Assembly (NCBI RefSeq): GCF_040054535.1
Contig: NC_090777.1
Coordinates: 12,497,001-12,561,000, forward strand
From: Antennarius striatus
Lineage: Eukaryota > Chordata > Actinopteri > Lophiiformes > Antennariidae
Reading direction: 5' to 3'
DNA length: 64,000 bases
In this document: positions 1-62,512 of the stretch, piece by piece
How positions within the stretch are numbered: the first letter of the stretch is position 1
Layout: every line of letters starts with the position of its first letter
Notes under the pieces: generated by a model
The model's database searches: none
Seen by the model: only the letters and a program-made list of their open reading frames with translations
Told to the model about the DNA's origin: nothing
Position numbers and translations under genes: made by a program

Positions 1-410
1 TGGACAGGATACCGAGGGATACCTTCTAGTTGTCGAAGGAGGTTTAGGTGTTTTCTTTATGCTCTTTTCAAACCTGGATAGAAAAAGAATCGCACTCGGG
101 AGAACCGATCACTTTTGCATCGGTAATTAGGAGAGGACTGCCTCCTTGGAGCGAACGGCAGACGCATCTGACCGACTGGGGTGGGGGGATACTTGGATGG
201 AGAGAGGGCAGCAGTGAGGGCTTGAGAGAGCGGCTTACCGTGCTCGGGTAGGAGGGAGGGAGACCGGGCAGTTTGAAGGAGCCTGGAGCGGCGCGGCGGC
301 TCCATGCGCGGCTCCTGCCGGGACAGAGCGCCCAGAGCCCAGCCGGAGCGTCTCCACTGCCGCGCGTAGAACCCCGGGCTTCAGGACGGCGGCCAGTTTG
401 GAAGTTTTTG
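1..410 (+). promoter_or_regulatory. tmem240: tmem240 5' leader and proximal upstream region
   Basis: This GC-rich stretch, richest at about 280-400, directly precedes the conserved start codon and probably contains the 5' UTR. No TATA box is obvious. Short open frames here in several phases look like by-products of GC-rich sequence. Where transcription starts cannot be seen from sequence alone. Confidence 0.4.
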
Positions 411-18571
<18,161 letters not shown>

Positions 18572-19472
18572 CTCTAAAAAACAAAACAACAGCAACAAAA
18601 CTATGCCCAGTCACCTGAAACCACTTCTACTCTCCTCACCAAGACCCTTTTCCCACCTTCCCAATCTCTTCCTTGGCCAACTGTTGCCTCAGAAAACCTG
18701 GAAAACTGCCCTCCTAATTTTCATAACATTGGCCCCCTGAAACTTCCATGACTGGACTTTCTTAAGACTAAACTTGTTCCGTCAGCACTAAACAAATCCC
18801 AAACTGGAGCAAGATGACAAATATTTGTTTCCATTGAAATCTTGTCTGATGTCCATGTCCACCATTGTTAGAGGAGAAGAAAAAAACATTTTTAAGGGTG
18901 TTTTTCTTGTATAGAGACATTTTCTGTGTTCATTGTTAAATCGGCATGCTCTTTTAGAACAGGGTAAGATGTGGGCAGTGTGTGGAACGGGGCAGCAAGA
19001 TGGGTGTGAGGTTTTTTTTCTGTAATGGGTGGGAGTGGGACAAATTTGGTGTTGGGAGGGGGTGAGTGAGAATGTTGGGCGTGTGGGTTTTTGTGATGGT
19101 TAGATTGCTGCTTCTGTAAATAGATATAAATATGGACAAGAGGGATTAACTGTCTTTAAAGGGGTGTGTGGGGGATTTCTGTGATTAATAGGAAACCTGA
19201 TGAGGGACTGTGTGTAAAGATTAGAGGAATGGAACAGAAAGACGAGTTTGCTTGGAAACTGGATGTGAAACAATGTGATTTCTGCTAAAACACAGATTAA
19301 TTAGCTTTGTTACTTAGTGAATTAACTGAATGTATTAATTTTTCCTGTAAATATGTGAGGGGGAGGGGAGCTTGCACGGTTGTGGTCGGGGTTCTCTTTG
19401 CTAAGTCGTCATTTTTTAGTGGAGACAGATGGCGAAATAATACCCAGCCTAGATGAGTCAGTTCAACACACG

Positions 19473-19479
<7 letters not shown>

Positions 19480-19546
<67 letters not shown>
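19480..19546. repeat. (CA)n microsatellite
   Basis: CA repeats with a short CG-containing start, in the presumed tmem240 3' UTR. Confidence 0.95.
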
Positions 19547-19547
<1 letters not shown>

Positions 19548-19709
19548 CACCATCTTCCCCACACTGTGCTTAACAACAGTTCAATTTTCTTCATCCAATT
19601 CTCTCACTTATCAACAGCAACCAGCCTATCAGCAGAGGGAACCCCCGCCCAACCCCCCCTCATCCTCTCTCTCCAGACATTGCTGTTGTGAGGATGAAAT
19701 GTCTGTTTT

Positions 19710-19715
19710 ATTAAA
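19710..19715 (+). terminator. tmem240: candidate tmem240 poly(A) signal ATTAAA
   Basis: ATTAAA is followed about 28 bases later by a GT-rich stretch (TGATGTTTGATTGTGTC, about 19744-19760), the usual layout for a cleavage site. It would give a 3' UTR of about 1.15 kb that includes a (CA)n tract at 19480-19546. An AATAAA at 20105 is an alternative. Confidence 0.4.
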
Positions 19716-19764
19716 AGTGCCATTGAAGCACAACAGTGACCTCTGATGTTTGATTGTGTCATTC

Positions 19765-21200
19765 CAATCACATGAACAACAAGAACACACTCTCACAGCG
19801 AGAGGTCGTTCCAGAGCAGCAACATCTGATTATACACAGGTCCTGCTGACAACCTCAACTCAGTTGATTGTAATTCAAATAGATATTTTATAGTCACCAA
19901 CTAACACCACCTCTGAAATGACTAACAATGACACTGACATTCTGATTAGATGGAGAACAACCCTCCACTATTATCCACTGGAACATCAGGAAACATCACA
20001 GGAACAGTTTTACAAATCTGATAAAGTTATTAAGATGGTAACTAATCCTAAAATGGACATTGTTAATATTTCTGATTCTCTGAATTTTTTAAAAGCTGAG
20101 TCAATAAAAATGTGAATAATACTTCCTGGAGCCTAAAAGGACCAGTCAACGACGTGAAAGTCAAAGATTTTAATATTACACAAATGTAAACTGACAAATA
20201 AAATGTCCGGCCTGAGGAGGAACAACTGAATATTCAGCTGTTTGTGAGAATTGATTTAAACAGTTAATGGCTTCAATGGCTGATCAGTATGCAGAAACAT
20301 GTTAAACTGTTGAACATCATCAGAAGCTTGTCAAATTCTAGCACCTTAGTTTAACTCTACGAATTATCTACTCAGTGATTCACAGCGGCTCTCAAAACTG
20401 TCCTAAAACCTAGAAGTTAACCATTGTTCTCCAGAATTGTTTTCTGTAAATTTAACTGATGACAAAAATGAAATTATGTGGTTGATCACTTTTGTGACAA
20501 ACAACTCAGTTTAGCAACATTTAAGAGGTATAAATATTATTTTCTTTGCTTTTTAACATGCAGTTAAGATCAACATTCACCTGAATTTAATTTAAAGCAC
20601 TGTAAGATGAGCAGCAGCAGACAAACTCATCATCTTATGCGCTTTTAGTGAAAAAAAGTTCCTGTGGATTAAGTGTAAGACTGTCGGATCAATAAAACAG
20701 ATGGAAATACAAATCAAAATGTCTCGATTAAAGATTGTTATTCGTTGAGAGCGGGTGTTAACTGCACCGGTGATGTTGTCATGAAGTCCCAGCGAAGAAC
20801 TGTTCTTAAAGAACCACTGCAGACATTGAATTCAAGCCAGAACTAATCAGCAAGCATAGGAGGATGTCCCATTTGAGGACAAATTTTCAGAATGTCAGAT
20901 ACATACAGACAAAATATCAATGAAGACAACAGATGAGAAAGAAAGAAAGCCAGAAAAAAAATCAAGACAAATATCATTCATTCAGAAATTTGTGGTGCAA
21001 AATAAAATACCTTAATCTTGAAATTACTACGTGAATCGAACATCAGACAGAATCAAAGTGAATGAAGCTGGCGTGTCGAAGAAATTCAGCAGCTCTTTGT
21101 ATACAGAAGTACTTTGATACATATACAAAGAAATCATGTAATTGGATCAGAACTGGACGGAGGTTTGTCTTCACCGCCTGTCTTCTGTGTGTGTGAAGGT
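19765..21200. other. intergenic interval between convergent tmem240 and atad3 remnant
   Basis: I see no gene, RNA or transposon end here. The sequence is AT-rich and unique-looking. The 3' end of the atad3 remnant lies at about 21200; its original stop codon cannot be located with certainty. Confidence 0.5.
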
Positions 21201-21206
21201 GAGTCC

Positions 21207-22934
21207 TCAGGGAGTCTGGGTCCAGCTTCTTCAGAGCTGGGAATCTGAGCAGACGCTGATTGGACTCTCGAGTTCCTCTGCCTGCAGTGACACAACAGCC
21301 TCATTGTCGACCTTCTCTTCCATGTTAGCAGCAGCTGCTCAGTTTGTCTTGTCGGTGATTTCATGCTCTACAGCCTTTTCTCCTTCTGCAGTAGTTGTTC
21401 TGGCCTTCACTTCTTCATCAACAACCTCAGTCGTCTCAGGCTGTTCCACATCTACCGTAGTCACCGTATCGACCTCCTGGGTTGTTAGGACAACGGCTTC
21501 CTTGTCAGCATCCTTAGTAGTGTTGGGTTGTTCCACGTCTACTGTTGCCACCGGATACGACTCCTAAGTTTGTAGGACTTATGCCTCCTTGGCAACAACT
21601 TCAGTCGTCTCAAGTTGTTTCATGTCTCCAGTACCCACTATGTTTGTCTCCTGGGTTGTTAGGACGCTTGTTTCCTTTGCAGCAATCTGTGAAGCCAGGA
21701 TCTCACCTTCTGAAGTAAACTCAGGGATAGAAATCTAATTGACATTGAGTTCTTCTGAAGCTGAGACCTCTGTTATTATGGTTTCAGCTGCCTTGGTAAC
21801 AGCTTCGGTTGTCACAGCTTCAACTTCCGTAACAACCACAGTACTGTCAAACTCCTTGCCCACATTTATCACTACATCCTAAATCTCTTTGGCAACATCT
21901 GAAGTTGCAGAATCTCTCTCCCCTTCCTCCACTTTTACAGAATTACTTTCCATCATTTCAAACTTCTTGGTATCGGCTCCTGCACCCTCCTCTTCCTCCT
22001 GTCTGATTGTTGCTATAGTATCAGCCACCTTTGCCAAATCCTTTGTTATTTCTTCACTATGTTTTACGATGTTTATTATGGACGCCATCCCTTTAGCATC
22101 CTCATTTGAAAGTCGCTCTCCAACCGGTGCAGCATCAGTCGCTCTTTCCTCTACAGCTTTAGTGCTTTCAGTTTCTACACCATCGACAGACACGGCTGCT
22201 GGCTTTGTGTCACCGGACACCACAACCTCTGGAGCCTCTGGCTCCTGTACGATATTAACATCTGATGCCTTCTCTAGGGCAACAGCTGGAACTGAGCTTT
22301 CCAAGTGTGTATTTTCTTCCACGACTACTTCTGTGACTTTAGTCTCTTGAACAACAGGATCAGTACTTCACTGTTCTCTAGTCATGGCAGCAGTTTCTGT
22401 GTCACTGGAAGCTGATATACCGCCAGCCTCTTTAAGCTCCCTGACTCCAGGAAGGACAGTGTCGGTAGCTATAACTGTTCCTAGCATCTCCTCAGTCAGA
22501 TCCTCCCCTGTCAACACCTCCTGCAGCGATGGGACAGCAGTATTTTTCTCAAAAACGGTTTCAACTGTTCCTCCATTTACCTCAGCAACATCCCTTTCCT
22601 TGACCAAAATGTTTTTTCTTTGGCAGTAACCTTTGTCTCTACCTCTGAAGGCAGAGTGGCTTCTTCTGCTCCTGCTGTTTCTCACAACCTCCAGAACTGG
22701 AAAGACTTGTGCAGCCGAGGTTTAATTTCTAGAGTGTTCATGTAAATCGGCTTCCTGGGGTGCCTTCTCCACAGCCATTTCCTTAGGGAGGAGGACGCCG
22801 ACCTTCCCAACCCCCGTACCTGCTTCTGTCAGTAGCCAATCCATTTTCTGTGCATGCTGCTTGATGGCATCATCAGCTCTTGAGTCCATCATCACTTCAG
22901 TCAAAATTCCATCTTCAGATGAGTATGCAACAAC
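21207..22934 (-). pseudogene. atad3: atad3 remnant, last exon with a long acidic C-terminal extension
   Basis: The exon starts [20 protein letters not shown] after an AAG acceptor, the normal ATAD3 end (AYxSEDGVLTEAMMDxRV...QQKMxWL). The same frame then runs on for more than 500 codons, rich in Glu, Val, Thr and Ala. In-frame stops are at 22722, 22368, 21879, 21735, 21579, 21564, 21339, 21231 and 21207 (lowest base of each), with no net frameshift. Human ATAD3A ends soon after the QQKM block, so the extension is unlike the human protein. Part of it is an 87-bp tandem repeat. It was probably coding until fairly recently. Confidence 0.75.
21405..21665 (-). repeat. 87-bp (29-codon) tandem repeat, three units
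   Basis: Units start at 21665, 21578 and 21491 on the minus strand, exactly 87 bp apart. The codon theme is VLTTQE..., VDVEQPETTEVV, KEA. Unit 2 has TAG where units 1 and 3 have CAG (TTQE), so that stop is a derived C-to-T change. Confidence 0.85.
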
Positions 22935-23439
22935 CTTCCAGGAAAACAAATTGAATACATGGTTGGCATTGGATTTGAAATCAAATTCATATTTGAAATG
23001 AGATTCACATTTTGTGTCAAAAGGTTTTTGTACTTACCTGCCAGGTGACGCCAAGTTTGGAGATTTCCCGACAGTTATATGCCTTCGACTCTCTTTGCAA
23101 TGTCTGAACATTTTTGTCCATAGTGGAACTGAGCCAACTTTAATCTCCTGTCATTGGATACAGAATAAAGCACAGGAGATTCGTACAGTAAATCAGTGTC
23201 AACACTGACCATTTGTTGTTTCAGTTAACCAACAGACTTGGCTCTGACTTGTGCGTTACATTCTGAGGACTTAAATATCATTTCATGAAAAGAAAAGAGT
23301 TTCAGGTGTGAACACATTATATACACCACTATGCAACTTGAGCTAGCAGCACAACATCTAGGTTCTGATGTTTTCATTTTCAATTCACCTCCAGCAGGGA
23401 GCAGCAACAACAATTTGTGCTGGGTCCTGAAGTGGCAGA

Positions 23440-23589
23440 ACCCAGCACAAATTTATCAAAATACTGGCGCACCACTCATTCCCTCTCCTCCAGGCTTGGT
23501 AAGGCAAAGATAACAATCTCATCAATATGATCCTTAATGGCCCAATGGAACTCTTCTGGTTGATTATTAGCAAGCACCAGCATGAACAT
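23440..23589 (-). pseudogene. atad3: atad3 remnant, second half of the AAA module
   Basis: Reads [36 protein letters not shown], then TGA at 23476-23478, then VVRQYFDKFVLGSATSG. This matches the ATAD3 sensor region [20 protein letters not shown]. The stop replaces an Arg codon (CGA to TGA is one step). The neighbouring piece at about 23670-23745 reads ISE, one extra base, then DLTATLNAFLYRT. Confidence 0.82.
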
Positions 23590-23818
23590 GAGGAGATAAT
23601 ATACCAGTACTTAAACTTGACCTGTGACCTTTTCATATCCAGACGTGCTGAGTGTCAAACATGAGATCCTTGCTTGTTGCTGTGCTCCCTGGTGCGGTAG
23701 AGGAAGGCATTGAGTGTAGCTGTTAGGTCCTTCCGAGATGCAAAAACCATGACTCATGAATATATGATTAAACCACTGGGCAGCATCACCATGCATACAG
23801 CACTGCAGCTGAACTCAC

Positions 23819-23865
23819 TGTGGATTGCTTGGAATGGATCAGCTTCATCTACAAACAGCAAGAGA
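23819..23865 (-). pseudogene. atad3: atad3 remnant, Walker B exon
   Basis: After CCCTGCAG it reads LLLFVDEADPFQAIHS and meets a GTGAGT donor at 23818. LLLFVDEAD is the Walker B motif with its catalytic Glu intact; the following AFLRKR of the family has decayed to PFQAIH. Confidence 0.8.
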
Positions 23866-24045
23866 CTGCAGGGAATCAGAGAAAATCAAAGAGAATCTGT
23901 TTAAGAACAGTCATTTAGTGCTTTTAATGTAATTAGCAGGTTTGTGTGCTGCACAACATCCAGGGCAACATTTAAAAGCTTATATTAATTTTAGTACTGA
24001 TACAGTGAGTGTTACTGCAGCAAATGAATATGGCAGACCATTGGC

Positions 24046-24163
24046 CACTGGTGCTGGCCCAGTCGAACACTTTGTGCATGTCAGTGACTCCATCACTCCC
24101 CATGGGCACTACGTCCACACCTGTCATGATGGCATAATCCATCCATGAATGAAGAGCCAGTTT
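24046..24163 (-). pseudogene. atad3: atad3 remnant, exon after Walker A
   Basis: After a TTTCAG acceptor it reads [20 protein letters not shown], then [19 protein letters not shown]. This is the ATAD3 block [36 protein letters not shown], still in one frame. The 3' border is not clear. Confidence 0.85.
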
Positions 24164-24383
24164 CTGAAAGGTAATAAAAAGAGATTAGTCCAAAATATAA
24201 TCTACTAAAGACATAAATATGACTACTTCTTTAAATTGCTGGGCATACATTGCATAATTCTCTGTCACCCATCTACTAAAGCCAACTATTAAGAAAACCG
24301 AATAAGAATAAAATAAGTAAAAATGAAAATGAAAAGGCCTCTGACCTAATCATACCGTCCCTCGGCAAAGAATGCTTTCCCAG

Positions 24384-24486
24384 TTCCAGGCGGTCCTTAC
24401 ATCAGGATGTTTCTGTACAGGCCTTCATTCTGCCTGGTGTTGCACGTGGCAATGGCAATGTCTCTCACACGTGCCTCCAAGGCTGC
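24384..24486 (-). pseudogene. atad3: atad3 remnant, Walker A exon with a stop before the P-loop
   Basis: Reads [28 protein letters not shown], then TAA at 24397-24399, then GPPGTGKAFFAE. In ATAD3 the residue at the stop is Tyr (NILMYGPPGTGK), one base from TAA. The P-loop GPPGTGK itself is preserved, but the usual Thr after the Lys is Ala. The donor expected after FAK is absent: GAG is followed by GGACGG instead of GT. Confidence 0.88.
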
Positions 24487-24753
24487 CTGCATGATCCAGA
24501 ACAAGATTTCGGCATATTTTTCAGTTGAAATCAAGAATGTGATTAATGAGATATCAACAGGACAAAATCCAAAAGCTGTTAATGCCTCAAATTGAGCACC
24601 ACGTCTTCTAATGGATCCTGTGGTCTGCTTCTCAGACGTCTGAAGGTCTGCAAAATGATGAAAACAGAGAGAATTACTGTACTGAGTGACTTGTTTTAGC
24701 AGAAACACATCAACCACTTGGAATCTGACAGATTATACACATAATATAGTGAA

Positions 24754-24803: not shown

Positions 24804-25298
24804 TATAAAATTTGATTTTATTTTCAAATAGTTGTGCAAGTTTTATAATACTAGTGATCAATATTTTGCTCCTAAAGACACAATTCAAATATTTACTTGT
24901 ATATTTATGAATTTTGTAGAAAAATTGTTGAAGCATCCTTGAACAGCCATGGACTATCAATACAAACACTTGATTGGTAAAACCTTTATAATTTGATCAA
25001 ATATTATAATTTTTTACTTGTGCTGTACAATTTCTCTCACATTCAGTATATTTGATGTGATTTGCTCAATATCCTGTAGATGGTACACCAATAAACAAAT
25101 CCACTTCAACAAGTTTCTAGTCCAGAATTGAGTTTGATTACTGTGTAGCTAGGGTCACACACACTGAACAGTCTCCTGTGGATGAATCACACGCTCACAT
25201 CCTACACGTATCGCATTCTTGTACAGATGATATCGGTTGGATTTCCACCCTTCTACTATGTACATGTTAAAAACATGAAAACTACTATACGGTTTTAC

Positions 25299-25454
25299 CT
25301 TGATTGGGTGCTTGATGGCCTCTGCCACAGTTAACCTGCAGGTCTCTTGGACCAGAGAGGGTTTTCCGAGGCGAGACTCCATGTCACGTCCAGCTACTGC
25401 TGTGGCATTTCTGTAAGAATACACTCCTGCTGCCAACAGCGTCAAACCGGCTAC
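25299..25454 (-). pseudogene. atad3: atad3 remnant, membrane-segment exon
   Basis: A clean 52-codon exon between CCCCACAG and GTAAAA. It begins [20 protein letters not shown], the ATAD3 membrane segment, and ends [13 protein letters not shown], matching the family block [13 protein letters not shown]...EALKHPI. No defect inside this exon. Confidence 0.88.
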
Positions 25455-25658
25455 CTGTGGGGGACAAAGAAAACACACATTTTCTGGCATGTTGTATGGT
25501 GTATCAAAATATGAAAATCAGCGCTTCCAGACGACTTTGGTTACCTACAAAACCTACAAGGGTTTTTTTAACAGCTCTCTACAGCAGAGGTACACAGGAA
25601 GACAACATGTCAGGTTGCTTTAAGCGTCAACGGAAGCAACAATGAATTTTTCTCTCAC

Positions 25659-25825
25659 GTTATACATTCTAGGACAGTCTGTCTGTGTTCAGCAGCTTTG
25701 AGGTGGATCTGTTTCCTGATCAGGTCTGCGCTCTCACGCTCCACCTGACCATGGGCTTCGGGCATCCGCTTCAGTTCGAAGAAGGTCACTCTTGTGTCTC
25801 AGTTCCATTTCATGTTCAACTGTCA
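25659..25825 (-). pseudogene. atad3: atad3 remnant, end of the coiled-coil region, frameshifted
   Basis: After a CAG acceptor it reads [22 protein letters not shown], then slips by one base (an extra A in a CGAAGCCC context) and continues in the next frame as [30 protein letters not shown], ending at a GTGAGA donor. These blocks match the EREMELRHK...[13 protein letters not shown] part of ATAD3. The slip would truncate the protein before its membrane segment. Confidence 0.8.
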
Positions 25826-26837: not shown

Positions 26838-29134
26838 GTGAACAAAGGTCCACGTGCGGACCCTGAGACTACACGAGAGACCATCTGTGGGACCACCTCC
26901 GCTCTTCGGACCCAGCACCCGGAGGCGCTTGTCATTATTACCGGTGACTTTAATCACGCCACCTTGGACTCATCTCTCCCCACAATGGTCCAGTGTGTAG
27001 ACTGTCCCACACGGAAGAACAGAACCATTTATCTCTTCTACACTAATGCTAAGGAGGCATACACCGCCACCCCCCTCCCTTCACTAAGTAAATCAGACCA
27101 TAACCTAGTGTACCTACAGCCCACCTACATCCCGCTGGTGAAACGGCAGCTAGCAACAACACGACAGGTCAGGAGGTGGTCCCCGGAAGCAGAGGAGATG
27201 CTGAGGGACTGCTTCCAGACCACCGACTGGGATGTCATCGTGGGCTCACATGGGGAGGACATTGAGGGGGCAGCTCAGTGTTTTACAGATTACATGAACT
27301 TTTGTTTGGACACTGTGGCCCCTGTCAGGACAGTCAGGTGTTACCCCAACAACAAACCATGGGTAACCAAGGAAGTCAAGGCTGTCCTGAACAGGAAGAA
27401 GCGGGCGTTCAGGAGCAAGAACGAGGAGGAGATGAGGAAGGCCCAGCAGGAAGTGAGACTCTGCCTGAGGGAGGCCAAGGAGGTGTACGTGAGGAAGCTG
27501 GAGAAGCAACTGGGGTGAAACCAGGTGCGGGAGGTCTGGAATGGGATGAGAACCATCACCGGACACGGGAAAGGGCGCGGCACTGTGGAGGGGAATAGTG
27601 AACGAACTAATGAACTAAACAGCTTTTTCAATCGGTTCAGCTCCCACCACTCCCTGCAGACCGCTCCACTGATGCTCCCTCCTCCTGTGCTTCGTCTCCT
27701 TCCACCCCTGCCACTTCTCCCGAGCCCACTCCAAGAACTGCGAAGCTCAATGGCCCCACCTCAACCACTGGACTTCCAACTTCGCTACGACCTCCTGCTC
27801 CCACCATGACGGAGACCGTCATCACTGCAGACCTGGTGACGACAACACTGAGGAGGCTCCGTACCTATAAGGCGACTGGACCGGATAAGGTCTCCCCAAG
27901 ACTCCTCTGAGCCTGTGCTTCGGAACTGGTTGACCCCCTGCAGCAATTGTTCAACCTCAGTCTGCGGCTGGGGAGGGTCCCGTCACTTTGGAAGACCTCC
28001 TGCATCGTCCCTGTACCCAAGAAAGGATGCCCTACTGAGCTCAACGACCACCGACCGATCGCTCTTACCTCCCACGTAATGAAGACACTAGAGCGACTGG
28101 TCCTGGAGCTTATGCATCCACAGGTGCAGGGTGGACCCTCTCTAGTTTGCCTATCAGGCCAAGGTTGGGGTTGACGATGCGGTCTTGTACCTCCTCCACC
28201 GCGTGCTCTCATACCTGGACACCGGGGGCTGTGCGGTCAGGGTGCTCTTCTTTGACTTTTCGAGTGCCTTCAACACCATCCAGCCGATACTCCGGCACGA
28301 TAAACTGACCTCCATGGCTGTGGACCCCTACCTCGTGAGCTGGATTACGGACTACCTAATGGACAGACCCCAGTACGTCCGTATGGGGGATTGTTTGTCT
28401 TCTGTGGTGACCAGCAGCACGGGGGCGCCACAGGGGACCGTTCTCTCCCCCATTCTCTTCACCATCTACACATCGGACTTCAAGCACAACTCGGATACAT
28501 GCCATATACAGAAGTACAGCGATGACACTGCGATTGTGGCATGTATCCAGGAGGGTGATGAGGGGGGGTACAGGGCATTGGTGGCTGACTTCGTGGAGTG
28601 GTGCCAACAGAACCAACTCCAGCTCAACGTCTCCAAGACCAAGGAGATGGTGCCTGATTTCCGGCGGGCACCTGCCTCTCCACAACCAGTGATCATCGAA
28701 GGCAGTGAGGTGGAGGTGGTAGAAAACTATAAGTACCTGGGACTGCATCTAGACAGCAGTCCGTAGTTTCCAGTGTGCTGTCATACGCCATTGTGTGTTG
28801 GGGTAGTGGGGCCAGGAAAAGAGATATGGAACGTCTTAACAGACTCATCCGCAGAGCGGGCTCAGAGGTCGGGCTGAGCCTGGACTCTGTGGAGACAGTT
28901 CTAGGGAGCAGGACCATGTCTAAATTCAGGGCCATCATGAAAAACACCACCCACCCCCTGCACACCACCTTCTCCCAGCAGAGGAGCACCTTCAGCGACA
29001 GACTGCTGTCATACAGCACCTCCACAGAGAGGCTGAGGTCCTCCTTCGTGCCATGTGCCATCAGGGGGTACAATGACTCTGTCAGGAGGAGCGGGGGGAG
29101 GTGGCGAGGTCAGCACGTGGTTGATCAGATTTAA
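26838..29134 (+). pseudogene. LINE ORF2 (endonuclease end, reverse transcriptase, C-terminus), broken
   Basis: From 26838 the frame reads through the end of the endonuclease (VIITGDFNHA, SLSKSDHNLVYL) and the linker (NKPWVTKEVKAVLNRKKRAF), then TGA at 27516-27518. Reverse transcriptase blocks follow in changing frames: VPVPKKGCPTELNDHRPIAL, FFDFSSAFNTIQP, GAPQGTVLSPILFTIYTSDF, and the catalytic YSDDT at about 28515-28529. After YKYLGLHLDSS a stretch is missing, and the C-terminal part resumes as YAIVCWGSGARKRDMERLNR and ends SFVPCAIRGYNDS. Several stops and frame changes: not active. Confidence 0.85.
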
Positions 29135-29498: not shown

Positions 29499-30426
29499 CA
29501 GCCACCCATCCATCCATCCAACTATCCATCCGTCCTCTAAGAGTGTTTTCCATCTCTCCTCTCCATGCAATTGGATCTGCTCACCCTTCAACTACTCCAG
29601 AGTTACCTCATATTCCTGTTGGAAGAGTTTGCATATGGAGACTGAAACATCCACCAAGGCTGAGCATCCCCCACAAGAAGATTTTCTTCATTAGATCACA
29701 CATCTACAAGTTGGACCAAATTTTTTTGGATATACATTCATGTTGAATATTTCCTTCTATATAACAATGTCTCCTACATAGTTTTATGGTAGTTCATGTT
29801 ATAGTTTTAGAAAATTAACAAAACAGTTACAAAAAGCTTTGCAACCTTCGAAAAAGTGGAAAATTAATCCAGACAGCAAACCAAAATTCAACTGTTTCTA
29901 CTTCACTCCATACCCAACCACCGCAGAAGTGGCATGAAATGAATGGAATTGTTAATGACAAGCATTTACTGTACTTTATCCTTCAGAGCAAAGAAAAGTA
30001 AATATGTTCATCTGCACATACTGACATATATGAAGTGATGTGAAAGAAAGAAACACAGATGGAGGGCTGATCCCTCAGGAACACTGTTTTCTCTGCTGAT
30101 TTCTCAAATCTAAATTCCCTTCCTTCTCTTCCTCCTCGACCCCCATTCTGACCTCCTGTGTGCTGTCTGTCAAAACTTTACCCATGTTCTAGTTTGTGTT
30201 GCTCAATCTGGTTTACTGTATGTATGATGGTGTAAACACCAAACAGATTTGTAGTGATCATGTAAGGCATTCACCAGCTAGACACTTTTCACCGAGTTCA
30301 GTTTAAGGTAATGTCCTCAAATGCAGTAAAGAATAATAATATGAGATCATTAATATGAAGTCATATCATATATGAAGAAAGCAATCAAGAAATGTTAAGC
30401 GAGGTTAAAAAACAACAGCACACACA

Positions 30427-30606
30427 TGATTTGTTGAGCTCTCTTGCAGCTTTTGCAGCTCTCTCCAGCCCAGTCGGGTCAAAGTTACTCAACTGGTCTC
30501 CAAGTTTGTTTCCCCCTGCTGCACCTCTGTCAGCAGAAGCCGACCCGGGCTGCTCCTCCATCGGTGGTGGCCTGTACCCCTTCCACCAGCTGAAGAGCCA
30601 CGACAT
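30427..30606 (-). pseudogene. atad3: atad3 remnant, first coding exon
   Basis: Reads [20 protein letters not shown], a short Gly/Ala linker, then [23 protein letters not shown]. The start MSWLF and the block [17 protein letters not shown] are the ATAD3 N-terminal hallmarks. The exon is open throughout. Its 3' border is uncertain: the nearest GT lies in a run of TGTGTG, which is not a strong donor. It faces sdhb head-to-head, with 1.5 kb between the two start codons. Confidence 0.8.
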
Positions 30607-30877: not shown

Positions 30878-31359
30878 CAGGGGTGACAAACTCATTTTCA
30901 AAGAGGGCCACATCAGCATAATTGCTGTCCTTAAAGGGTCAGATGTAACTTATACATGTAACTCAGTGTAATGTAACATAAATTTAATTACTTCTTAATG
31001 TTAAATAACTCTGAATTTATTACTTATTCAAGTTGCAAACATCACAGTTTCATAGAAAACTATGTTTACTTGTTGCTCTGTTACATAAATCAATTTGTCA
31101 GGTTATGAAACCCAAATAACTCCATCAATCTAGGACCAAACTATCCAAGTGAATAAAGAAAAACACATCAAACAGAAGTAAAACGTTTTTGTCAAAGTTA
31201 AACTGGGCTTAATTACTGCATTGTGGGAAATGTAGTTTCAGGAAAAGCACGCTTTTGACCTATTTATTTTTAGACATTGACCCTTTGTGCTCTCATGGGC
31301 CGCGTAAAATGATGTGGCGGGCCACATTTGGCCCACGGGCCTCGAGTTTAACATATGTG
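30878..31359. mobile_element. non-autonomous hAT element with perfect target duplication
   Basis: Starts CAGGGGTGACAAACTC and ends GAGTTTAACATATGTG, imperfect inverted repeats. CATTAGAT is duplicated outside both ends (30870-30877 and 31360-31367). GGGCCACAT near the left and GGGCCACATTTGGCCC near the right are familiar from vertebrate hAT-derived repeats. At 482 bp it has no coding capacity. Confidence 0.8.
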
Positions 31360-32018
31360 CATTAGATGAACACAAAAGCTTTAGCAAGAAATGTATTGTT
31401 TGCAAGGAATAGAATGCTTTTAGTCTACAAAACGGAACCATCACTTAAACTTCGTCACTTTCAGTCCAATTTCTCAAACCTAGCGTGTATTGTCTCAACA
31501 CGATATACCAAGTCCAGCAAGGAAACATGTTGGAAAACCAAATCAGGAAAGAGAAGTCAGTATATTGGGATTTGAACACATTACATCAGACAGCATTTTA
31601 TCTCAGTCTGAAAAAAAAAAGGATTAACAAGCGCACGGAAACTGCTTGACTGATTTAAAATGTGTGTACACGATAGGTTGTAACTATTACGGATAAAGAT
31701 TATCTAAAATTTGGCTCCCCGAACTTCAATGTAATAACTGTCTAAATACAGTAGTTTACATTATTGTCCGAGTGACTCACAGCAGACAACAGAAGCAAAC
31801 AAGCAGAAACAAACACTAAGCTTCAGTTTTTAAGTGTTAAAAAAAATCTTACTAAAATGCTTTTAGTCGACTAACAGTGATGCCCTGTAGTTTTTCGCTC
31901 CCTAACTTCCACCTGCGGCACAAACCATGTTTGTATAACCTCGTGGTTTGTCAGTAACACCAGACAGGCTGGGGTGCTTGAAAGCAACTTGTTTACGTAA
32001 GGACGCACAGCTACGTGT

Positions 32019-32026
32019 TGACGTCA
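32019..32026. promoter_or_regulatory. sdhb: CRE-like palindrome TGACGTCA upstream of sdhb
   Basis: A perfect CREB/ATF consensus 104 bp before the sdhb start codon, among several ACGT cores. CREB/ATF sites are known in nuclear genes for mitochondrial proteins. That this one is used is inference. Confidence 0.4.
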
Positions 32027-32129
32027 CACGTAGTGGGTGGAGTCTAGTGTTACATATCCTGTAGTGACTTAAGGGGTGACCTGTGGTGTCCGCGCTGAAG
32101 TTACTCCATAAATATATCCAGCTCTGAAG

Positions 32130-35430
<3,301 letters not shown>

Positions 35431-35789
35431 ACATGTGAAAATGTCAACTTGAACTTGTGCCTGCATCACCTTTAATGTGATGTTAGATGTTAAAAATGTT
35501 TGAGACTGTGGTTATATGGGTGTCTGTGTTGCAAATGACAGGAGAGCTTGAGAAAAGGGTGATAGATGAAAATCTCGAGCAAAGTATTTTATTTATGCAA
35601 CACACTGGACCACATTTCTGGTAATTCTCTGCTCATTAAAATGCTCTGTTGTATTTTATTTTTTAAAATGCTCATGAACTTGTATGGAGTTTGTAAATAC
35701 TTAGACATGTGTTCATTGAAGATGTTCTGACCTCAATATGGAACTTGAAAATATGTTTTTAGATTAGGAAAGTACAAAATTGTAATTGC

Positions 35790-35799
35790 AATAAATAAA
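35790..35799 (+). terminator. sdhb: sdhb poly(A) signal, two overlapping AATAAA
   Basis: AATAAATAAA gives AATAAA at 35790-35795 and again at 35794-35799, about 360 bases after the stop codon. This is the first strong signal downstream of sdhb. Confidence 0.65.
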
Positions 35800-37316
35800 G
35801 ATGACGCAATTCAATGTCCAAGTCTGCTCCAGATATTTGAATGTTTTGGCATTTTTTCTGCCATAATGTGATACAGTATGATACTATTATCATTGCAACT
35901 TTTATTGGAATGTTTTTGTTGCAAAAATCAACACTCAGATCTTTGTCGTTCATTGTCACATAACGGCGCATTTTGTATTGCAAAGTACCAAAAGCTCAGG
36001 TGTTGCTAAGAACATTGAAAATGGATGAGCCACCATGAACAAAACCAGGATTCTGATTTGTAGCAAGTACTGCAAATGGATTCCTCAAAGGGAGTCTGGG
36101 ACAAATCTGTGCATTTGCCAATAGAATGCGATGGAGATAAAAGTGCTTTGTTGAGAGCGCTGATACTGTCTCATCTCACTGCAGAAAACCAGGCTGGAAA
36201 AGGGGAAACAAAGGGATTCCCAACCAAGCAGCCCAAACATTCTTCACATTCATGATTACTGTTGAAGTTAAGAAGTATTATTAAATTGCTTAAAATCAGA
36301 ATTCTTTTTTTGCTATTATACGTAACAACAAAAGTAGGAGTGAAAATCCCTCAGATTCTACATGAAAACAAAACATTTCTGCAAGCAAAGAAAAGTACCA
36401 TGCTGCATTTGACAAAATGTATATATAAAATGAACACAATCTAATATTTCAGAGAATTAAGTGCAGTTGTTAAGTCTGTTCAAACTGAAACAAAAGCATT
36501 CCCTTGACAGCAATGTGGGAAGTTTTTATGTTTTCAGTTCCCTTGGAAATTTGAAGGACGTAAACGACAGAAATAACCTCCAACAGGACAGTCTCTGTCG
36601 TGACAGGCAGGACTTTGATCAAATTTTGTTGCACAGACAGGAATACACGTGGAGAAAATGAGCATCATACATCAACAGAAAGCCGGTTTAAACAAATGCT
36701 GTATTAACTATATTATAACACTGACTGCTTGCGCTTGCCTGTATCAGTTTTGGACAACGTGACTTCCCGTAGAAATGATCGCTCCGACCTGGTCTACACT
36801 TCCTGTTTCTGAGTGGGCGTGGCGACCTTCCGCCGAATCCCATTGGACATTTTCAACACTATAACACAACACGTTATTTTTTCTTAATGTGAAAATAAGA
36901 GACCTCCAGACTGAGTCAGATATTATTTCCACATAATTTTGCTGCTAGTTTTGGCTGCTTGTTAAATATTCTCACTACGGATGTGTGACGTCTTTTGTGT
37001 TCGGAAACAACGTCTCAAAGATAGTTTTCTTTTGCTTATAGCGCGTCTTAAACCCATCATTTAAGGCTCATCACTGTTGAATGGCGTGTCGTTTATGATC
37101 GAGGGTTCCGTGTACTTTTGCTCGGTCATGATCTCATTCATTCCCCCCTCAGAAGTGGGCGACCGAGGGACGGACAGGAAATGGCTCTCCAGCCAACACT
37201 CTCTTCCTTGAATCGTCTTTGGTCCAGTGTGCGACTGGCGGCCATGGGACCGTCTGTTACTTAGGTTACCGTGGTGTAGAGGATCGTGATGTGGAGTCTC
37301 TCTTCGTGACCTCAGG
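35800..37316 (+). promoter_or_regulatory. sdhb-atp13a2 intergenic and atp13a2 upstream region
   Basis: The first kilobase is AT-rich with no gene recognised. The last 350 bases before the atp13a2 start are more GC-rich and hold a TGACGTC core near 36987, so the promoter probably lies there. No TATA box is clear. Confidence 0.4.

Positions 37317-62512
<25,196 letters not shown>

Follow-up and report, generated by a model that had tools for sequence, protein, structure and literature searches.

ATAD3 is a mitochondrial ATPase that is reported to matter in early development and is linked to human disease (PMC11599198), and we found two described instances in which the protein carries additional residues at its C-terminus: (i) human ATAD3B, with a 62-residue extension reported to arise from mutation of the original stop codon (PMC11599198), and (ii) the ATAD3 of Plasmodium falciparum, with a lineage-specific C-terminal extension of about 100 residues whose role is unproven (PMC13249166). 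In two reviews the ATAD3B extension is described as primate-specific, and the ATAD3B C-terminus is placed in the intermembrane space before it reportedly becomes exposed on the outer membrane and recruits LC3 in mitophagy (PMC12765899, PMC10556134); for ATAD3A, the C-terminal portion is presented as an ATPase domain located in the matrix (PMC11599198). Passages of a further source, PMC10427715, contain nothing on ATAD3B. Among the open-licence papers listed for ATAD3, titles and opening lines of abstracts yielded no description of a long tail on a fish ATAD3, which is weak evidence of absence, and no description of a function for such a portion of ATAD3 was found there.

Here we characterize an atad3 copy within 64,000 nucleotides of Antennarius striatus DNA (the whole stretch analysed, hereafter the window). 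We conclude, with a probability of roughly 0.8, that this copy is an intron-bearing (unprocessed) teleost ATAD3 pseudogene, the last exon of which once encoded the conserved C-terminus followed by a strongly acidic, low-complexity tail of ~530 residues. Both the gene copy and the tail lie on the minus strand, a point absent from an earlier, sequence-only reading of this DNA.

Searching the window by tblastn with a human ATAD3A sequence returned 15 rows, 13 of which are collinear on the minus strand from 30606 to 22806; of the other two, one is a proline run and one matches the plus strand near 5400. The exon pieces recognized by tblastn are as follows.

30427..30606, minus strand: first coding exon, starting MSWLF (human residues 1-68; Pfam ATAD3_N, E 9.9e-8)
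29532..29618, minus strand: exon piece with one in-frame stop (human residues 94-122)
25661..25823, minus strand: exon piece or pieces with a frame change near 25755 (human residues 173-226)
25296..25454, minus strand: exon preceded by ag and with gt at its end (human residues 251-303)
24591..24680, minus strand: exon remnant (human residues ~292-321)
24361..24495, minus strand: Walker A exon, with a stop immediately before GPPGTGK
24023..24166, minus strand: AAA exon (human residues 363-410)
23673..23864, minus strand: Walker B piece (LLLFVDEAD), separated by non-matching sequence and a stop from what is left of the following exon
23425..23586, minus strand: AAA exon with one in-frame stop (human residues 447-500)
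23032..23149, minus strand: penultimate exon, its frame changing near 23080-23094, donor cag/gtaagt retained
22821..22934, minus strand: start of the last exon, the conserved ATAD3 C-terminus (codons 1-38), acceptor ..ttttcctggaag/gtt

The family domain ATAD3_N (Pfam PF12037) was matched by two of the five ATAD3 pieces scanned, including the ORF at 25158-25517 that holds the exon at 25296..25454 (E 2.9e-11), and the Walker A (GPPGTGK) and Walker B (LLLFVDEAD) segments both occur, in that order, among the tblastn matches. Two ORFs of the AAA region, scanned singly and excluding both Walker segments, had no match to Pfam AAA, and a PDB sequence search with one ATAD3 ORF retrieved nothing at E 0.01. 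Exon-intron structure is kept in a copy that bears disabling changes throughout, and a processed retrocopy was ruled out by the retained introns. Because the last intron keeps both its donor (cag/gtaagt) and its acceptor (ttttcctggaag/gtt), the last exon can be taken to begin at 22934.

Neither an intact open reading frame nor a complete set of exons is present. The core carries three stops in 421 codons, including one immediately ahead of Walker A, and frame changes in at least two exons (near 25755 and near 23080-23094). No match to human residues 69-93, 123-172 or 227-250 was obtained in the window, even with relaxed tblastn settings. From these stops, frame changes and missing stretches we consider the copy dead. 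Were the lesions instead errors of assembly or base calling, the gene could be alive with its full tail, a reading to which the retained splice signals of the last intron and the low density of stops (7/529 codons in the tail, 3/421 in the core) lend something; it is nevertheless highly unlikely, given that the three stretches of human sequence are missing under relaxed settings as well and that part of the Walker B region has been replaced by sequence that does not match. Stop rates in tail and core (7/529 versus 3/449 codons) do not differ significantly in a test of equal rates (p 0.20), the 449-codon core of this test including three of 14 ranges (28 codons) in the wrong frame that the 421-codon set leaves out. 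Decay of the tail and of the core is compatible with the same span of time.

Several other elements occupy the window. Inside the atad3 pseudogene, on the opposite (plus) strand, lies a LINE-type element at 26838-28763, with a match to Pfam RVT_1 in 28146-28763 and no Pfam match in 26838-27515; we take it to resemble the teleost Rex1 family. This reverse-transcriptase element need not be what disabled the gene. A second LINE-type element is found at 41560-42651 on the plus strand, its segment 41560-42027 matching Exo_endo_phos_2. Pieces of an ATP13A2-like gene lie at 53600-62500 on the plus strand, where the ORF at 61416-61847 (+) matched solved ATP13A2 chains (E about 1e-6, 47 residues) and had no Pfam match; the ORFs at 53602-54096 and 54567-54881 (+) presumably, by eye, belong to the same gene. 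By eye, the ORFs at 5064-5456 (+) and 43337-43837 (-) also resemble remnants of Tc1/mariner transposases, and a 137-amino-acid ORF at 60259-60669 (-) resembles part of a fish retroelement.

Beyond codon 38 the last exon continues into the tail, whose features are listed here.

21234..22820, minus strand: acidic C-terminal extension, codons 39-567, once coding, now interrupted in frame by 7 stops and with two frameshifts that compensate each other
about 22610..22690, minus strand: tail segment with its coding signal in frame 1 (sliding scan), reading as acidic coding sequence
21948..22124, minus strand: predicted single long helix (AlphaFold2, residues 82-140 of the piece 22367-21882)
21408..21668, minus strand: three tandem copies of an 87-bp (29-codon) unit
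21231..21233, minus strand: TGA at codon 568, with which the extended protein probably ended; the coding signal stops at about this point

The sequence-only reading held that the ATAD3 frame goes on for more than 500 codons past the normal end, interrupted by nine stops and by no frameshift. The continuation is real and reaches about 21234, and nine stops were indeed counted in the 576 codons from 22934 down to 21207; as a tally of disabling changes, only the seven within codons 39-567 remain. The coding signal fades at ~21260-21235, so the natural end of the protein was probably codon 568, with codon 576 outside the coding sequence, and neither stop is likely to be a disabling change. Downstream on the minus strand, no AATAAA occurs as far as 20000 (1.2 kb), and ATTAAA is found only at 20591 and 20174, which weighs against the favoured reading. 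The claim of no frameshift proved wrong, as the coding signal passes to frame 1 at about 22690-22610 and then returns. Since this stretch reads in frame 1 as acidic coding sequence before frame 0 resumes, we attribute it to two compensating frameshifts.

The scarcity of stops is itself suggestive, not decisive, for some shuffled sequences and some segments of the window are equally stop-poor. Over 22934-21207 the other minus frames hold 37 and 45 stops and the plus frames 20, 6 and 30, and dinucleotide shuffles average 33.5 +/- 5.1 per minus frame; even so, 17 of 2000 shuffles had some frame among the six with nine or fewer stops (30 of 2000 when only codon 61 onwards is considered), and two of 181 window segments of tail length had seven or fewer in some frame. 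We therefore considered that the open frame could be an artefact of composition, either a stop-poor, low-complexity sequence or the shadow of a coding frame on the plus strand. These low counts, together with the mere six stops of plus frame 1, speak for that explanation; the position-specific base composition speaks against it. A model trained on the ATAD3 exon pieces alone (421 codons, among them the first 38 of the last exon, which lie outside the tail) scored codons 39-567 at +112 bits in the ATAD3 frame. The two remaining minus frames scored -81 and -169 and the three plus frames -60, -3 and -59, so that the ATAD3 frame is 115 bits ahead of the best plus frame. For 181 control segments, overlapping one another and drawn from positions 1-20000 and 31000-50000 of the window, the best of six frames averaged -23 bits and reached at most -4.6. 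The first codon position is purine-rich in the tail, at 80% versus 65% in the core. In a sliding scan, for which the model was trained on the region itself, frame 0 scored best from ~22920 to 21260, with the single exception of 22680-22621, where frame 1 scored +11.9 and frame 0 -17.3.

Further evidence comes from the repeats within the tail. Tandem Repeats Finder delimits an 87-bp unit in 2.5 copies at 21419-21638, which by codon reading resolves into three units of 29; a pattern derived from the repeat has only two match sites in the window, both in the tail. Pooled over the three pairs of copies, which are not independent and form a small sample (29 codons, three copies), the ATAD3 frame has a dN/dS of 0.33, compared with 0.92 and 1.02 for the two remaining minus frames and 0.68, 0.48 and 1.91 on the plus strand. 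The value of 0.48 in plus frame 1 counts against the favoured reading, but the ratio is lowest in the ATAD3 frame. For copies 1 and 3 alone Fisher p runs from 0.006 to 0.028 over all four roundings of the fractional counts, 0.006 being the rounding most favourable to constraint. On the ATAD3-trained model, the purine-rich first position and the repeat dN/dS, we rejected both a plus-strand gene and a composition artefact, which we regard as having very little chance of accounting for the open frame. The frame-specific coding signal and the constraint between repeats instead support the proposal, made in the sequence-only reading, that the extension was selected as protein before the stops arose. 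That the stops are secondary to coding is supported at one of them: repeat copy 2 is interrupted by a stop at codon 457, a position at which each of its siblings has a glutamine codon, which marks that one stop as secondary. Judged from these patterns in the DNA, the tail appears to have once been translated as part of an ATAD3 protein.

A coding tail might alternatively represent a separate gene beginning just downstream of the normal ATAD3 end, for instance after the stop at codon 71, and sharing strand and frame with atad3 by chance. The TAA at codon 71 is compatible with such a boundary, as are the frame change that comes soon after it and the end of human ATAD3A, which we take to fall about 6 residues after the aligned block. 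Yet in every sliding segment to either side of codon 71 (22830-22681) frame 0 scores highest, if by only 3 to 6 bits; coincidence of strand and frame has a chance of ~1 in 6; and no further exon of such a gene was recognized in the course of the other analyses. We consider a separate gene improbable and retain the reading of the tail as an extension of ATAD3.

The biased composition described in the sequence-only reading (Glu, Val, Thr, Ala) is borne out, the tail comprising E 15%, V 14%, T 11% and A 10% with a net charge of -61, as computed over the 522 non-stop codons among 39-567 with the frame-1 segment counted in frame 0. AlphaFold2, applied to the 162-residue piece 22367-21882 as a single sequence without alignment, returned a mean pLDDT of 62.9 and a pTM of 0.26; block means reached 91-96 over residues 91-120, and outside the helix at residues 82-140 no structure was predicted, a lone helix from a single sequence being weak evidence. 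One match to the LC3-binding (LIR) pattern [FWY]xx[LIV] occurs in codons 39-567 (FPVL, codon 78), a number that chance could give. The tail would have been a mostly unstructured, flexible acidic arm behind the AAA part, perhaps with one coiled-coil-like helix, and may have acted as a charged spacer or interaction arm.

Searches for relatives of the tail gave negative results, a point against the favoured reading. The 575-residue stretch, with stops as X, reached a best E of 0.11 in Pfam and 0.23 in PDB, which is chance level. Its 162-residue stop-free piece had no tblastn match among plasmids, and none of its pattern matches (11 in viral contigs, 108 in prokaryote contigs) was confirmed by tblastn, these collections being not meant for fish genomes, so that negatives there say little. 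Compared with the rest of the window, the tail matches only itself; a blastp self-comparison gave no off-diagonal rows even for the known repeat and was hence uninformative.

We suggest that the tail may have arisen through read-through of an earlier stop and grown in part by in-frame tandem duplication of the 87-bp unit, and that the copy carrying it would have been a redundant duplicate that then decayed. We give slightly less than even odds to the possibility that living ATAD3 genes of this lineage have, behind the AAA part, an acidic C-terminal domain of ~500 residues, grown in part from repeats, of which the dead copy would preserve a fossil. Human ATAD3A is ~586 residues long. A tail almost the length of the human protein would mean that the ATAD3 C-terminus tolerates an acidic appendage of very large size, which some lineages may put to use, and would offer a natural experiment on the role of this end of the protein; a tail confined to the dead copy could be linked to the process that made the duplicate expendable.

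Set beside known proteins, the copy resembles ATAD3A/ATAD3 in the order of its exon pieces, its ATAD3_N domain, its Walker A and B segments and its conserved C-terminus, and differs in the stops, frame changes and missing stretches that break it and in its long acidic tail. By published description, it shares with human ATAD3B the character of an ATAD3 paralogue with extra residues in frame past the conserved C-terminus, whereas the human extension has 62 residues and the fish tail ~530 codons. With Plasmodium ATAD3, again by description, the likeness is a lineage-specific C-terminal extension of unproven role, and the difference lies in a length of ~100 residues, a distant lineage and a living gene. 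At ~530 codons the fish tail is far longer than both ATAD3 extensions that we found described.
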